A stretch of 64,000 nucleotides of DNA from Cellulomonas sp. S1-8 (GTDB taxonomy: Bacteria > Actinomycetota > Actinomycetes > Actinomycetales > Cellulomonadaceae). The position numbers and the translations under genes are program-made. The stretch spans positions 4,030,001 through 4,094,000 of the forward strand of contig NZ_CP110806.1 of NCBI RefSeq assembly GCF_026184235.1, given 5' to 3'. This document shows, piece after piece, positions 3,805 through 61,882 of the stretch. Positions within the stretch are counted from its first letter, which is position 1; every line of letters starts with the position of its first letter. The notes under the pieces are model-generated. The model did no database searches. It was not told the DNA's origin and was given only the letters and a program-made list of their open reading frames with translations.

Positions 3805-4259
3805 TCCGGCAAACTAGACATTTCGTGCGGCCGTGGCGACCACCGAACGGGTGTGTGGTGGTGAGATCACCTGGACGAGTGACCAGAGCGTTCGCGATCA
3901 GTCGAGGTCAGCGACCAGGAGTCTGCTTGCCAGCCTCTAGCCGCCTCTACCCCGCTCCGCGCCGGCCGCACTCTCCATCGATCTTGACCTGCCGCGCTCT
4001 TCGCATCGATGGCAACACCTGATGGAGGTCGGCCAACGACCGTCCGCACGCCGGAGCCGCGTCCCTATCTAGCCACCTCGGCCCGGCTCAACGGAAGGCG
4101 AGCCGGTCCGGTCAATGGACGACCACGTAGCGGTACCCTGCCCATCAAGACCAGTGGCAGCTCGCAGCACGTTGCTCCAGAAATGAGTACGCGGGGCGAT
4201 TCGAGTCGTGAGCCATGTGTGCGCTGGTGGATGCGTGCCGTCGAGAGTAGGGCGTAACC
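3805..4259. other. 455-base non-coding spacer at the edge of a lower-GC block
   Basis: No convincing gene was found on either strand. From about 3890 the composition falls away from that of the surrounding genes, and the drop continues into the ATPase gene at 4260. I looked for flanking direct repeats, a tRNA end or an integrase remnant and saw none. The promoter of the ATPase gene should lie in the last 150 bases. Confidence 0.6.
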
Positions 4260-5858
4260 ATGACTAGACCGCGCTACGGCGATCTGTATTTCGGCCTGTC
4301 CGACTCGCGCAACGAGGCGAACCAGGATCGCGACTCGTTCCTCCAAACTTATGTCGACCTGAACGGCTCTACGAAGCGAGTAGTCCGAGGAGATAAATTT
4401 CTCGTCCTCGGACCGAAGGGCACCGGTAAGTCCGCGCTCGCCTGGTACCTACAGTTCGCAGAACCTGAGGGGGCTCATCTTGCCCTTGTGCGCGACGCTT
4501 CGAGTCTGCCTCTGGCCGAGGTTCCACGCCTTCAAACTGGCCAGGAGCCCGGACCAGAGCGCACTGTCGTTGCCTGGAAATTCATCCTTCTCTGCAACTA
4601 TCTAGAGCTTCTGATGCGCGATCAGGGATGCTCAATCAATCGGAACCCAGAAGTGGTCCGAGTCGCCCGCCTGTTGCGGGATTTTGGATTCATGGGTGAC
4701 GCGTCAGGGCGAGCCCTGCTCAAGTTCTCGACAACGACCGTAACTATACCGGTGCCGAAACTGGGAACTATTTACAAGCGCGAGAGCAGCTCGGCACTCA
4801 ACATCTTTAACCTCATTCCCTATCTTGAGATGTGGGTTGCCGAGGCAGAGTCGGCGGTGCGACACATTCTACTCATTGATGGCCTCGACTCAATATTCCT
4901 AAATGACGCCAAGTACGACGAGAGCCTTTCCTCGCTCGTTCAGGCCGCATACACTCTCAACCAGAAACTAATGGAGAACCGGGCCACTGGTAGTGTTGTA
5001 CTTCTTCTGAGAAACGATATATTTTCACGCATCGCCCTGTCGCTCCCTGACTCGCAGAAGATGCGTGACGACCTCGCGCTCGAACTAGACTGGCGTGTGC
5101 TATCGGGAAAAGCCGGCGTGGGAGCGCCTCTTATGCGCCTCGTCAATACCAAAGCGGGTCGCGCCCTGGGTGTGGACAACTTCGAGGTGCTCAAATACTT
5201 CCCCGATTCCATCGAGGTTGGCTCACGAGAACTCGGCGTCCGCAAGATACCAACCTTTCAGTACCTGCTGAATATGACGCGCCACACGCCTCGCGACATG
5301 CTGCGCCTATTCGAGGAGATCCGTCGGGTCGAAGCGTCAGGAATCTTTGAAGAGAGCGGGGACCGACTCCGTCAGGAGGTCATTCATGAAGGAGTGCTTC
5401 AATACTCGACGAAATACTTCGTCGGCGCGATCAGTAACGAGTTTGCTGGGTATGCGGGCGGGCCGGAAAGGGCGGCCGCTGCACTCACAGCACTCAAGGC
5501 GATAAACAAGCAGTCGTTCGACGGCGATGAGTTTCGAGAGAGCCTAGCAAGCGTGGCCTCTGGTATCGAGGTGGATCACCGTGATCTATTGCGTTTGCTA
5601 TTTTACGCAGGAGCTATCGGCAACTCGATCGGCGGCTATCGAGAGAAGAGCTACATGCAGTTCTACCACCGACGAGACGAGTCAGAGATTTATCTCCAAG
5701 GCAACTTCATGCTCCACAACGCGCTGATCCACGCATGGGGCCTGCGTCGAACGCTCGGAAATGAGCCCGAGAGTCAAACTGGCGCTATTCCGCTCATCGA
5801 TCGGGGCGCAGCGAGACCGCGGCGCCGGCGCCGAAAGTGGGAAGAGCGCAAAAAGTAA
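4260..5858 (+). CDS. P-loop ATPase, Sll1717-like, in a horizontally acquired low-GC block
   Basis: A 532-residue soluble ATPase. It begins YGDLYFGLSDSRNEA, then a Walker A GPKGTGKS at residues 51-58. A Walker B HILLIDGLD lies at 202-210 and a sensor-like strand VVLLLRNDIF at 246-255. This order (aromatic FG motif, then GPKGTGKSA) resembles proteins called Sll1717-family P-loop ATPases; the assignment is from memory. The C-terminal half (about 330-500) is helical with no domain I recognise, and the last 20 residues are strongly basic (RPRRRRRKWEERKK). Codon use differs sharply from all neighbours, with many A/T third positions, so recent transfer is likely. The gene stands alone, without visible partner, transposase or integrase. 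A defence or stress role is possible but not shown by the sequence. Confidence 0.85.
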   Translation: MTRPRYGDLYFGLSDSRNEANQDRDSFLQTYVDLNGSTKRVVRGDKFLVLGPKGTGKSALAWYLQFAEPEGAHLALVRDASSLPLAEVPRLQTGQEPGPERTVVAWKFILLCNYLELLMRDQGCSINRNPEVVRVARLLRDFGFMGDASGRALLKFSTTTVTIPVPKLGTIYKRESSSALNIFNLIPYLEMWVAEAESAVRHILLIDGLDSIFLNDAKYDESLSSLVQAAYTLNQKLMENRATGSVVLLLRNDIFSRIALSLPDSQKMRDDLALELDWRVLSGKAGVGAPLMRLVNTKAGRALGVDNFEVLKYFPDSIEVGSRELGVRKIPTFQYLLNMTRHTPRDMLRLFEEIRRVEASGIFEESGDRLRQEVIHEGVLQYSTKYFVGAISNEFAGYAGGPERAAAALTALKAINKQSFDGDEFRESLASVASGIEVDHRDLLRLLFYAGAIGNSIGGYREKSYMQFYHRRDESEIYLQGNFMLHNALIHAWGLRRTLGNEPESQTGAIPLIDRGAARPRRRRRKWEERKK

Positions 5859-5880
5859 ACCGCTCCGCGCGTGCCCCTTC

Positions 5881-8247
<2,367 letters not shown>

Positions 8248-57230: not shown

Positions 57231-57368
57231 ATGTTCGTGCTCCGCCGCACCGCACGCGTCGCCGGCGCCGTCGTCCTCGGCGGGGGCCTGGCGTTCGCCG
57301 CGCAGCCGACGCTCCTCAGCGAGCTGGCCCGTCCGCTGGTCGCGACGCTGCTCGGGCTCGGCGGCTGA
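57231..57368 (+). CDS. 45-residue single-pass membrane peptide
   Basis: A short gene with strong start evidence: GGAGG seven bases before the ATG. The product begins MFVLRRTARVAGAVVLGGG, has one hydrophobic helix (about 9-23) and a second weaker one at the end (LARPLVATLLGLGG). It is divergent from the ABC operon. Its last 53 bases overlap the end of the convergent gene at 57316. No family was recognised. Confidence 0.5.
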   Translation: MFVLRRTARVAGAVVLGGGLAFAAQPTLLSELARPLVATLLGLGG

Positions 57369-58491
57369 GCCGCTCGTCCGCGCCTGTTCCGCCCGACGTG
57401 AGCGCGAACGTCCCGCCCGGCGCGGACGCGAACGTCCCGACCGTCACCCCCACGACGGTGGCGCGCTGCTGCAGCAGCGGCACGGCGGGCGCCGCGCACG
57501 CGCGGGGGACGGTGGGTGGGGCGGGCCGGCCGAGGCCGAGCAGGTCGAGCGCGCCCCGCACCAGCGCCTCGAGGTCCGCGACGTCGGGACCGGGGCCCAG
57601 GGCGTTCATCGGGGCCGGCTCGACGGTCAGCGTGGGCGGTCCGCTCAGCAGGACGCCGACGACCTGCCCCAGGTCGCCCCCGTCGACCACCGAGCCGGGG
57701 GTGTACGCGGGGGGCGCGACGAACGCGTACCCCGACGACGTGCCGGCGCCGCGCGCGTACGCCTGGCCCACGGGGTCCGGCGCGTACCAGCCGCGCCCCG
57801 TCGTGGGCTGCCACGCGGACGGCGCGACGGGGACCATCGTGCAGCACGGGTAGGTGAGCGTGACGACGCTGCCGTACGGGCCGGCGACGCGGACGACGAC
57901 CGTGCTGCCGCCGCCCTGCAGGGAGTCCGCGAGCGCCGCGAGCGCGGTGTTCACGGCGTAGGCCGGCACGGTGCCGGCGGGGATCGCGCCCGTCACGGGG
58001 TCGACGGTCCGCATGCCGCCCGCGCCGTCGGGCGGGTCCGCGAGGACGGCCCGCAGCCGCGCGAGCCCGGCCAGCGCCGCGGCGGCCTGCCGGGCGGCCG
58101 CGGGCGACCCGGCGTCGGCGGCCGCGACGGTCCACGTGAGGTCGGCCAGGAGCGCCGCGTACGCGTCGGGGAACCCGCCCGACGGCGTCAGCGCCACGAG
58201 CCCCGGGGCGTCGCCCGGCACGACCCGGGCGCTGACCCAGTCGTAGGTGGCGGCGTTGAACACCTGGTTCGGGTTCTGGTACCACCAGGCGAAGTCCCCC
58301 TGCGCCGGGTACTGCACGAGCTCGACCGCCGCGTGGTAGAGCAACCAGGTCTGGGCGTTGATCGCGTCCCGCACGTCGGTGTACGCGGGCAGACCGGACG
58401 CCCCGGCGCAGATCGTTGCCGACCTGCCCCGGGGCGCCGACCCGCGACCCGCGCCCGGGAGGGCACCCGGGCCGGTCGCGGCGTCCGTCAC
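57316..58491 (-). CDS. unrecognised protein, paralogue of the 58913-60382 product (gene C of cassette)
   Basis: A 391-residue protein without signal peptide or membrane helix. Residues about 59-125 align with the first gene of the cassette: YPAQGDFAWWYQNPNQVFNAATYDWV here against FPAQGDFSWNWQNGNQVLNDATYQYV there. Both then have DPxTGAxxPG, and MVPVAPSAWQ...GWYAPDPVGQA matches MVGVAPTPWQ...GFYSPDPVAQA. The shared frame is clear, but the central beta-rich segment of the first gene (about 265-330) is missing here and the C-terminus is Ala/Pro-rich. It overlaps the middle gene by four bases (GTGA). Confidence 0.75.
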   Translation of the reverse strand: MTDAATGPGALPGAGRGSAPRGRSATICAGASGLPAYTDVRDAINAQTWLLYHAAVELVQYPAQGDFAWWYQNPNQVFNAATYDWVSARVVPGDAPGLVALTPSGGFPDAYAALLADLTWTVAAADAGSPAAARQAAAALAGLARLRAVLADPPDGAGGMRTVDPVTGAIPAGTVPAYAVNTALAALADSLQGGGSTVVVRVAGPYGSVVTLTYPCCTMVPVAPSAWQPTTGRGWYAPDPVGQAYARGAGTSSGYAFVAPPAYTPGSVVDGGDLGQVVGVLLSGPPTLTVEPAPMNALGPGPDVADLEALVRGALDLLGLGRPAPPTVPRACAAPAVPLLQQRATVVGVTVGTFASAPGGTFALTSGGTGADERLSRRARAASRPADGPAR

Positions 58492-58898
58492 GACGACGGG
58501 GCCCCGGCGACGAGCCAGATGAACGGCGCGCCCACCTCCCAGGCGTCGAGGCTGCGGAACAGCGCGCTCTTGACGTTGCGGAGGATCTCCGTCTGCTGCG
58601 CGGTGCGCCGCGGACCGGGCGTGACGATCGCCTGCGCCGTCGGGTTGACCAGCACGGTGGACATCGTGCTCGGCGCCGGCACCCCGTTGCGCTGGATCTG
58701 CAGGTTCGCGTGGCCGGTGGCCGTGTACCCCTGCAGGTCGAGCCGGGTGGTCCCGATCGAGACGATCAGACCGACCGCACCCCAGACGTCCGCGTAGTCG
58801 AGCGCGTGGATGCACGCGCTGGCGTCGGCGTAGAGGGCGTTGCCGTGGGCCGGCGACGGACCTGCCATGACCGCGCCCTGTGCGATGTTGATGGGCAT
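58488..58898 (-). CDS. unrecognised 136-residue protein (gene B of cassette)
   Basis: A small soluble protein with no recognised domain. Near its N-terminus it has NALYADASACIHALDYADVWGAVGLIVSIG, and TGHANLQIQRNG follows. The second half is helical (TAQQTEILRNVKSALFRSLDAWEVGAPFIW). A GGAGG site precedes the ATG. It sits between the two paralogues: 14 bases after the first gene and overlapping the third by four, so all three are made from one transcript, probably in fixed ratio. Confidence 0.7.
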   Translation of the reverse strand: MPINIAQGAVMAGPSPAHGNALYADASACIHALDYADVWGAVGLIVSIGTTRLDLQGYTATGHANLQIQRNGVPAPSTMSTVLVNPTAQAIVTPGPRRTAQQTEILRNVKSALFRSLDAWEVGAPFIWLVAGAPSS

Positions 58899-58912
58899 CG
58901 TCCTACCTCCTT

Positions 58913-60382
58913 CTAGCGGGTGACGCCGGGGTTGGCGACCGCAGCACCGATGACGTACGCGGTCTTCTGGGCCTGCGGGACGCTCGTGACCTCGGGCGAG
59001 GCGGAGAACGTGACCGTGAACGAGCTGTCGTCGGAGCCCTTCTCGAAGGAGCTGCCGTACGCGCCCTGGCTGAAGCTGCCGAGCTTGATGAACCCGAACA
59101 GCGTCAGGTTGCCGCTGACGTGCTCGTCCCACGACTGCTCGAAGCTCGAGAAGTCGGCCTTCTCGTAGTGGATGGTGATGGTCGGGTAGTTGGCGATCAG
59201 GACGTTCGTCAGCAGCCCGAACCCGCCGCCGTCGGCGACGGGACCCAGCGCGTACGGCGGCGGGTTGAGGAACGTGAAGCCCGTGACGTCCTTGCCCTCG
59301 TTGGCGACGGCCTGGGCGACGGGGTCCGGGGAGTAGAACCCGACGTTCGTCGCCTGCTGCCACGGCGTGGGCGCCACGCCGACCATCGAGTAGCCCGCGT
59401 AGCTGATCGTCACGGAGCACTCCGTGCTCGTCCCCGACGACTTCGCCATGTCGTAGCTCGCACCCGCCTCGGTGCTGAACTCCAGCCACGAGCCCACCGA
59501 GAACCCGACCTGCCCCTCGACGTCGACGTTGACGCTGCTGCCCGACGACTGGGTCGTCGTCATCGAGATGTCGATCGTGCGACCGGTGTTGCTGAGGTCG
59601 TTGTTGATCTGCGCGATCGACGAGGACACCGACCAGCCGACGTTCACGCCCGGCACCAGGGCACCGGTGTTCGGGTCGAACGTCGAGATGCCGCCCGTCG
59701 CGGCGCTCGGCGACTGCGTGTTGGCCTTGAGCTGCCGCAGCACCCACGCGCCGTTCTGGATCTGGTCGGTCAGCCCGAGGACCGGCTGCATGATGCTGAG
59801 GTACAGCGACACGTCCGTGAGCACCTGGTCGGCGCCTGCCGGAGCGGCCGGCAGCAGGGTGCGCAGGTTGCGGGCCTGCGACATCTGCGTGTACGTCACG
59901 GGGGTCGCCGTCCCGCTCCACAGGGTCCCCAGGACGTGACCGATGACGTAGTCGATGTTGGTGGTGACGTTGGCGGCGGTCCGCTGCGCGTCGGTGATGG
60001 TGCCGAACTGCGTCTGGTAGTCCGCGACGACGGTGCCGCCCTGGACGGACGCGTCGGACTGCGCCTTGGTCAGCCGTGCCTGATCCGCGGTGCTCAGCGT
60101 GAACACGAGGGCGTTCAGCACCGTGGAGTAGGCGTTCGCGAAGCTGCCGCCGGTCGACAGCGCGACCGTGCCGTCGATCTGCCCCGGCGTGACGAGCGCG
60201 TTGACGTACTGGTAGGTGGCGTCGTTGAGCACCTGGTTGCCGTTCTGCCAGTTCCACGAGAAGTCGCCCTGTGCCGGGAACTGCACCGGGTACAGCGTCG
60301 ACTTGAACGTGTCCTGGACGGCGGCCATCGCCTTGGACTGGAGTGCGGAGTAGAACTGCGTTCCACCCGTGGTGTCGACCAT
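58913..60382 (-). CDS. unrecognised protein, first gene of a three-gene cassette (gene A)
   Basis: A 489-residue protein without signal peptide. The N-terminal part (about 35-100) is QFPAQGDFSWNWQNGNQ... with many Asn, Gln and Tyr. The central region (about 265-330) alternates polar and hydrophobic residues (GRTIDISMTTTQSS, SVNVDVEGQVGFSVGSWLEF), as in amphipathic beta strands. The MVGVAPTPWQ and SPDPVAQAV region (about 333-360) is shared with gene C. The end again shows beta-type alternation (FSSFEQSWDEHVSGNLTLFGF). A G-rich ribosome site precedes the ATG. A pore-forming or shell-like beta protein is one possibility. I do not recognise the family. Confidence 0.8.
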   Translation of the reverse strand: MVDTTGGTQFYSALQSKAMAAVQDTFKSTLYPVQFPAQGDFSWNWQNGNQVLNDATYQYVNALVTPGQIDGTVALSTGGSFANAYSTVLNALVFTLSTADQARLTKAQSDASVQGGTVVADYQTQFGTITDAQRTAANVTTNIDYVIGHVLGTLWSGTATPVTYTQMSQARNLRTLLPAAPAGADQVLTDVSLYLSIMQPVLGLTDQIQNGAWVLRQLKANTQSPSAATGGISTFDPNTGALVPGVNVGWSVSSSIAQINNDLSNTGRTIDISMTTTQSSGSSVNVDVEGQVGFSVGSWLEFSTEAGASYDMAKSSGTSTECSVTISYAGYSMVGVAPTPWQQATNVGFYSPDPVAQAVANEGKDVTGFTFLNPPPYALGPVADGGGFGLLTNVLIANYPTITIHYEKADFSSFEQSWDEHVSGNLTLFGFIKLGSFSQGAYGSSFEKGSDDSSFTVTFSASPEVTSVPQAQKTAYVIGAAVANPGVTR

Positions 60383-60492
60383 GTCGGTCCCCCCTGCATC
60401 TGCCGGGACCCCCCCTGACGGCGACCCCGTGCACCTCCCACCGTCGTGACCGACGACGCGCGCGACATCGTCAAGACTGATGTGGCGTCGCC

Positions 60493-61179
60493 TCACAGGT
60501 CGTGCAGGTGCCGCCGGGCGGCGTCGATCGCCGGCACCGCGCCGAACGCGTGGGCGCGCGCGACCGCCGCGAGCTGCGAGGTGGTCCCCGTCTTGTCCAG
60601 GACCGCGCGGATGTGCGAGCGCACGGTCGGCAGCGCCACGTGGTCCGCACGGGCGATGTCCGCGGCCGACATCCCCCGCATGAGGGCGCCCAGCACGTCG
60701 AGCTCGCGCGGCGTGAGGGACGCGAGCGCCGCCGCGTGCGCGACACGGCGCCGCAGCCGCGCCAGCAGCCCACGCCGGTCCGGCCACGTCGCCGGGTCGC
60801 CGAGCAGACCGTCGAGCGCGCGCACGAGGTCCGGGAGCGGCTGGTCGCCGTCGAGGGCCGCGACCGCGCCCCGCTCGACCGCCGCGGTCAGCACCCGCAG
60901 GTCGGCGCGCCGCCCCACGACGACGACGGGTGCCTCCGCGCTGCGCAGCGACGCCGGCGGCGGACCCGGCGGCAGACGTCCGCGCGCGTCGACGACCAGC
61001 ACCACCCCCGCCTCGTGGTCCTGCCGGACCTCGTCGTCGAGCAGCTCCCAGTGCTCCGTGCGCACCGCTCTCCAGCCCGTCGCCGCGAGCGCCGGTGCGA
61101 GCGCCGCACCCAGCACGACGTGCTCGGACACCACCACGACCGTTCTCGACCGGGCACGCGGTCCCCCCCTGCGTGTCAC
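60493..61179 (-). CDS. LuxR-family regulator with atypical receiver-like domain
   Basis: A 228-residue regulator. The N-terminal domain (about 12-125) has the alternating strand pattern of a receiver (TVVVVSEHVVL, VVLVVDARG), but the usual acidic pair is replaced by Ser-Glu at 18-19. An Asp at about 64 could be the phosphorylation site, or the domain may be non-phosphorylated. The C-terminal LuxR helix-turn-helix is at 154-212 (LTPRELDVLGALMRGMSAADIARADHVALPTVRSHI). It is 110 bases upstream of, and co-directional with, the three-gene cassette at 57316-60382, which it probably controls. The GTG start at 61179 has no strong site. Confidence 0.85.
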   Translation of the reverse strand: MTRRGGPRARSRTVVVVSEHVVLGAALAPALAATGWRAVRTEHWELLDDEVRQDHEAGVVLVVDARGRLPPGPPPASLRSAEAPVVVVGRRADLRVLTAAVERGAVAALDGDQPLPDLVRALDGLLGDPATWPDRRGLLARLRRRVAHAAALASLTPRELDVLGALMRGMSAADIARADHVALPTVRSHIRAVLDKTGTTSQLAAVARAHAFGAVPAIDAARRHLHDL

Positions 61180-61264
61180 CCTGCGAACGTCTCGCGCTCC
61201 CCGGTCGATCCGTCCGAGGCGCGGCGCGGGAGCCGGCAGGGCCGTCCCCTCCTAGGCTGGTGCC

Positions 61265-61882
61265 ATGGCCCGGTACCTCGACGTGCACCCCACGGACCCG
61301 CAGCCCCGGTCGATCGCGCAGGTCGTGGCGATGCTGCGCGACGACGCCGTCATCGCCTACCCGACCGACTCGATGTACGCGCTGGGGACGCGCCTGGAGA
61401 ACCACGACGGGGCGGACCGCATCCGCCGCATCCGGCACCTCGACGACACCCACCACTTCACGCTGGTGTGCGCGGACTTCGCGCAGCTCGGGCAGCTCGT
61501 GCACCTCGACAACAGCGCGTTCCGTGCGATCAAGTCCGCGACGCCCGGGCCGTACACGTTCATCCTGCTGGCGACGCCCGAGGTGCCGCGGCGCCTCGCG
61601 CACGCGAAGAAGCGGTCCGTGGGCGTGCGCATCCCCGACGACCCGGTGGCCCTCGCGATCCTGCGGGAGCTGGGCGAGCCGCTGCTGTCGTCGTCGCTGC
61701 TGATGCCGGGCCACGACTGGCCGATGACGGAGGGCTGGCAGATCAAGGAGGAGCTCGACGACGTGCTCGACGCGGTCGTGGACGCGGGCGACCGCGGCAC
61801 CGAGCCGACGACGGTCGTCGACTGGACGTCCGGTGCGCCGGAGGTCGTCCGCGTGGGCGCGGGCGACCCGTCACGGTTCTGA
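61265..61882 (+). CDS. YciO/Sua5-YrdC-family protein
   Basis: A 205-residue YrdC-fold protein. PTDSMYALG, KKRSVGVRIPDDPVA and the LSSSLLMPG region are typical of the YciO branch, related to threonylcarbamoyl-AMP synthases (tRNA t6A pathway). YciO-type members have been reported with weak activity, so the role here is open. An ATG at 61265 gives the family N-terminus. It is divergent from the LuxR regulator. Confidence 0.88.
   Translation: MARYLDVHPTDPQPRSIAQVVAMLRDDAVIAYPTDSMYALGTRLENHDGADRIRRIRHLDDTHHFTLVCADFAQLGQLVHLDNSAFRAIKSATPGPYTFILLATPEVPRRLAHAKKRSVGVRIPDDPVALAILRELGEPLLSSSLLMPGHDWPMTEGWQIKEELDDVLDAVVDAGDRGTEPTTVVDWTSGAPEVVRVGAGDPSRF

Follow-up and report, generated by a model that had tools for sequence, protein, structure and literature searches.

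A precisely inserted gene cassette of Cellulomonas sp. S1-8 encodes a putative pore-forming protein and a paralogue lacking most of its first candidate membrane hairpin

The window analysed here, a stretch of 64,000 nucleotides from Cellulomonas sp. S1-8 (contig NZ_CP110806.1, positions 4,030,001 to 4,094,000), carries a cassette of four genes, R, A, B and C, which is a precise insertion that moved as a unit (window positions 57372..61250, 3879 bases). We tentatively favour the reading that A is a membrane perforator of the giant-pore type, C a hairpin-less modulator, B a targeting partner and R a transcriptional gate, all in one horizontally moving unit. The genes lie on the reverse strand: R (60493..61179) encodes a LuxR-type regulator with a degenerate, receiver-like N-terminus; A (58913..60382) a putative pore-forming protein of 489 amino acids (aa), judged by homologue search, structure model and gasdermin entries in the fold comparison; B (58488..58898) a small partner of 136 aa with homologues, and B-like domains, elsewhere; and C (57316..58491) a paralogue of A that lacks most of candidate hairpin 1. 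R and A are separated by 110 bases and A and B by 14, while B and C overlap by 4 (GTGA), so that the gene calls agree with the original prediction, made from the sequence, of tight packing behind a regulator on the same strand. The start of C at 58491 is consistent with its homologues P0115 and P0116; the database entry from the same genome, P0114, begins later and has 352 aa.

The insertion and the host-derived tail of C were absent from the original prediction. The cassette was placed at 57372..61250 because in a related genome (L029) the sequences matching its two flanks, up to window position 57371 and from 61251, lie only 3 nucleotides apart (blastn). Among nine further relatives compared, six place the right border at 61248-61252, and the remaining three match only from 61264. 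At the left border, C reads on into host flank DNA for its final approximately 18 codons (57316..57371), the boundary falling at C residue 374, and these codons run antisense to a small host open reading frame (57231..57368, forward strand). C homologues have ends different from that of C in the window. The 1-kb interval 59001-60000, within A, has a GC content of 0.676, against about 0.75-0.78 in the DNA flanking the cassette. Inside the cassette no transposase or integrase was found by reading.

A and C had been proposed to be paralogues, and their 43% identity over two blocks (A residues 25-113 and 323-405) bears this out. The further claim that C lacks A residues of about 265-330 holds for residues 272-285 and 294-321, and the loss proved wider than described, extending to residues 117-214, which are helical, and 432-448. 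Three segments of A are concerned, all encoded on the reverse strand. Residues 265-330 (59393..59590), a Ser/Thr/Gly-rich amphipathic beta stretch and candidate membrane hairpin 1, are mostly gone in all eight C-type proteins; the helical insert, residues 98-223 (59714..60091), is missing in seven of the eight, P0119 retaining it; and residues 407-461 (59000..59164), candidate membrane hairpin 2, are shortened in the C of the window and in some other C-type proteins, and full in others. The alignment A7 comprised the eight C-type rows and 41 A-type rows (the window and 40 chosen hits). Residues 280-320 are mostly absent from each C-type row (8 of 41 positions filled) and whole in 40 of the 41 A-type rows, P0108 having 25 of 41; the helical insert and the second segment are filled in A-type rows but for 0-2 positions. 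The amphipathic character attributed to residues 265-330 was confirmed by a mean beta moment of 0.40, against 0.25 elsewhere, a value reached by only 4 of 480 circular shifts and the strongest such signal. Ser, Thr and Gly make up 47% of residues 265-330 and 38% of residues 400-460.

The structure model of A, built from the window protein and 63 of 113 hits, reached a predicted local distance difference test (pLDDT) value of 86.9 and a predicted template modelling (pTM) score of 0.80. It is beta-rich, with helices at 98-126 and 182-223 that form the insert, and its confidence is lowered over residues 271-320 (block pLDDT 57-78) and 421-440. The C model (pLDDT 84.6, pTM 0.81) has a short confident hairpin at the position of the long segment of A. 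Fold comparison returned gasdermin entries over most of both models, at low Z, and Foldseek alone gave no significant entry for either. The predicted core arrangement of A and C may resemble that of bacterial gasdermins such as those of Vitiosangium (7n51), Runella (7n52) and Bradyrhizobium (7n50), and the two flexible beta segments of A seem to be placed where membrane hairpins could form. Entries for DNA polymerase, Vip3, a BID domain, Arp2/3, RNA polymerase, phage neck and baseplate proteins, RseB/MucB and the like were weak and mutually unrelated and were set aside.

There are also clear differences from known giant-pore proteins. Solved gasdermin chains have 240-263 residues, whereas A has 489 aa and a helical insert, and its cassette holds a paralogue without hairpin 1, the B gene and a LuxR-type regulator of its own. 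According to PMC9612521, bacterial gasdermins often have an adjacent protease gene, and most carry an N-terminal cysteine for palmitoylation. No protease gene was found in the cassette or its flanks at the window locus, the neighbourhoods in other genomes lying mostly outside view, and the first 30 residues of A hold no cysteine, the protein having one in all. No gasdermin profile turned up for A or C at E <= 10, or among the 64 members of the A alignment, for which 25 of the 31 matching families were displayed. Unlike MACPF, CDC and CDCL proteins (C8, 2rd7; intermedilysin, 1s3r), A has no match to PF01823 or PF22693, and neither has C. Because no such sequence profile, adjacent protease or N-terminal cysteine was found, we do not file A as a gasdermin or MACPF protein, although it may work like one.

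Indeed, A, B and C appear to lie outside every existing sequence family. None reaches the cut-off of Pfam or NCBIfam; Pfam matches at E <= 10 exist only for A (Imm6, 0.16; HUGP, 0.21), with none for B or C. The best Pfam matches among the 64 alignment members are weak and scattered, and the two lowest E values shown come from single members (OmpH, 0.0033; MspA, 0.01). Among PHROG families, B comes closest to one whose function is unknown (E 9e-4). A known defence system was rejected, as PADLOC models assign no family to A, B or C, and an enzyme likewise, since A shows no conserved set of residues that looks catalytic and matches no family above the cut-off. A literature search by title and abstract text, which cannot query sequences, found no description of A, B or C.

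The distribution of the cassette is sporadic. In whole-genome searches with A or its alignment, the carriers, always counting the genome of the window, numbered one among 58 relatives, three among 221 genomes from the family, and one each among 396 genomes from the order and 396 from the phylum; a search of 396 phylum genomes with B found only its own. A protein search with A, in which 8000 candidates were scored, gave 113 hits from taxa including Cellulomonas, Nostocoides, Jatrophihabitans, Polyangium, Nostoc, Labilibaculum (54% identity), Aminicenantes and Thermoanaerobaculia. The possibility that A is a phage or plasmid gene was rejected, since no match at 1e-5 was found in 50,697 phage and 72,556 plasmid records; a plasmid search with the homologue P0106 and a viral contig scan with B were also empty.

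The original prediction regarded the genes as a single system, and in part this stands. R, A and B, with an identical 14-base gap between A and B, recur in C. terrae (L005) and C. biazotea (L016 and L004, its A being split across these two contigs), thus in all three Cellulomonas with A, and the cassette was inserted as a unit. Neither C. terrae nor C. biazotea yielded a second A-like gene, so that C seems to be optional. The seven relatives of C (including P0113) and the twelve of B were compared with A proteins by the size of the longest contig, equal sizes being an indirect sign of linkage: six of the seven C relatives share this size with an A protein (9241, 69652, 13780, 4558, 6054 and 8655), the seventh sitting on a 1.8-kb contig, and B relatives do so twice (69652, 5292). 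Between C. terrae and C. biazotea, dN/dS values of 0.029/0.21 for the C-terminal part of A and 0.031/0.31 for B look like purifying selection. When the window is compared with C. terrae, the ratios are higher, at 0.215/0.45 for A, 0.43/0.59 for B and 0.57/0.88 for R.

More distant relatives place A and B in other settings. In L009 (2663-8684), a distantly related A of full length (99.7% probability, 23% identity) lies 63 bases behind the gene of a 112-aa protein, S, the two standing between an upstream flagellin gene and a gene without Pfam match that presumably encodes a flagellin N-methylase. Viral contig scans with this A and with S matched only the contig of L009 itself. S has relatives on five Paracoccus plasmids and directly follows a large gene in both plasmids read; in one of them (L014) the large gene matches the MACPF models PF01823 and PF22693 (7e-11 and 5e-8). 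A small gene adjoining a large pore-former gene, as in B-A, S-A or S-MACPF, recalls the aegerolysin and MACPF pairs (pleurotolysin/ostreolysin), but neither B nor S matches the aegerolysin model in Pfam, and B and S, which show no similarity, were rejected as one family. B-like domains were also found on plasmids of rhizobia and Variovorax, where the stretches read contain no A. Stand-alone B-like proteins were seen on four rhizobial plasmids (L020, L021, L022 and L024), with nif genes nearby in one record. The suggestion that B is an adaptor is plausible because a Chroococcidiopsis plasmid protein (L019, 6791-7768) joins a signal-like N-terminus and a B-like domain to a cyanovirin-N (CVNH) domain, a likeness to CVNH lectins confined to the fusion partner, as B itself has no Pfam match. 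The Nostoc protein P0109 is a fusion of a sigma-70 factor with the C-terminal half of A, a hint that the half is a domain in its own right and that A has ties to the control of transcription in other settings as well.

The regulator R occupies the same position in C. terrae and C. biazotea, with 44% identity between the window and C. terrae. Its GerE helix-turn-helix (HTH) is recognised by Pfam at residues 154-207 (E 4.8e-10), and some NCBIfam response-regulator models extend back to about residue 80. The receiver had been called atypical, rightly so: none of the seven Pfam matches at E <= 10 is a receiver model, and by reading R lacks the acidic pair and the lysine, while R of C. terrae lacks the acceptor Asp. 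In PADLOC, R matches CARF3 models across its C-terminal HTH part.

Under the favoured reading, A would combine a predicted gasdermin/MACPF/CDC-like core with the helical insert, and once it had oligomerised, its two flexible amphipathic segments, rich in Ser/Thr/Gly, would turn into membrane hairpins. Since C keeps the core and not the first hairpin, it would be expected to bind A without inserting and so to govern the pore, as a poison subunit or an assembly cap. B would most likely target or dock A, and R would gate expression of the cassette. No signal peptide is seen by reading in A, B or C, as predicted, which makes classical secretion less likely than either release through lysis or an action on the membrane of the producing cell that leads to its death. 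The accompanying claim of no membrane helix was covered by hydropathy scoring for B and the 352-aa form of C, with top 19-residue values of 1.35 and 1.34, window A being outside this scoring.

Other explanations have to be weighed against this one. In the fold comparison for A, several non-gasdermin entries score as high as the gasdermins, and the gasdermins are not the only entries spanning the model, which weighs slightly against the favoured reading. Possibly, if somewhat improbably, A is a surface or matrix protein that forms no pore, such as an adhesin or shell subunit; its gasdermin likeness would then be that of a generic twisted sheet and C a shortened structural variant. For a shell, contractile or secretion accessory, as once proposed, nothing was found in favour except the weak phage baseplate and neck entries, while the proposal of a membrane-active A with a truncated partner C survives as a lead that draws on the fold comparison and on the fact that all eight C-type proteins examined have lost the amphipathic segment.

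We consider it unlikely that the cassette encodes a released multi-component toxin against other cells, in which B would be a receptor binder and C a second pore subunit, as in the aegerolysin/MACPF or CDCL pairs. The A/C pair does resemble the CDCL long/short pairs, S adjoins both A and a MACPF gene, the B-like domain occurs in a fusion with a signal-like N-terminus, and three A homologues have signal-like N-termini (and one homologue a C-terminal hydrophobic helix). However, the products in the window lack signal peptides, the searches revealed no C in C. terrae or C. biazotea, and, according to PMC11952106, it is the short CDCL subunit that makes the pore, whereas the C-type proteins lack the candidate first hairpin. 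Quite improbable, in our judgement, is that C is an immunity protein which caps A to protect the producer, the cassette being a toxin-antitoxin or addiction unit. This would explain the sporadic spread and fits both a C that keeps the core without the candidate hairpin and the insertion as a unit, but C. terrae and C. biazotea keep A and B with no C found, so C is seemingly unneeded for tolerance there, and the tail of C in the window, being host DNA, is not under old selection.

To the right of the cassette lies a forward-strand host gene (61265..61882) that we take to be YciO/Sua5-like; it is matched in 40 of 40 genus genomes, closely in 38 (73-100%) and only distantly in two, and the small open reading frame of the left border has a tblastn match beside it in L029 and L030. 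By reading, the flanks hold this gene and an ABC transporter. In other genomes an ABC ATPase adjoins the YciO-like gene without the cassette in 10 of 29 loci, and the other 19 show no ATPase match in the stretch examined. Elsewhere in the window, positions 4001..6000 have a GC content of 0.58-0.60 against about 0.72-0.75 around them, possibly a foreign stretch.

It is conceivable, though on the unlikely side, that A founds one more lineage, a bacterial one, within the giant-pore superfamily of gasdermin, MACPF and CDC proteins, in a small cassette moved between phyla and controlled by transcription and by a hairpin-less, dominant-negative governor, C, rather than by protease cleavage. If A forms pores, it would belong to an unrecognised and widely scattered branch of the giant-pore proteins behind pyroptosis and complement, and the A/C pair would amount to a natural experiment, both on the pore-making segment and on protease-free control. 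Even if A is no pore former, A and B are conserved families without known function that move as a unit.
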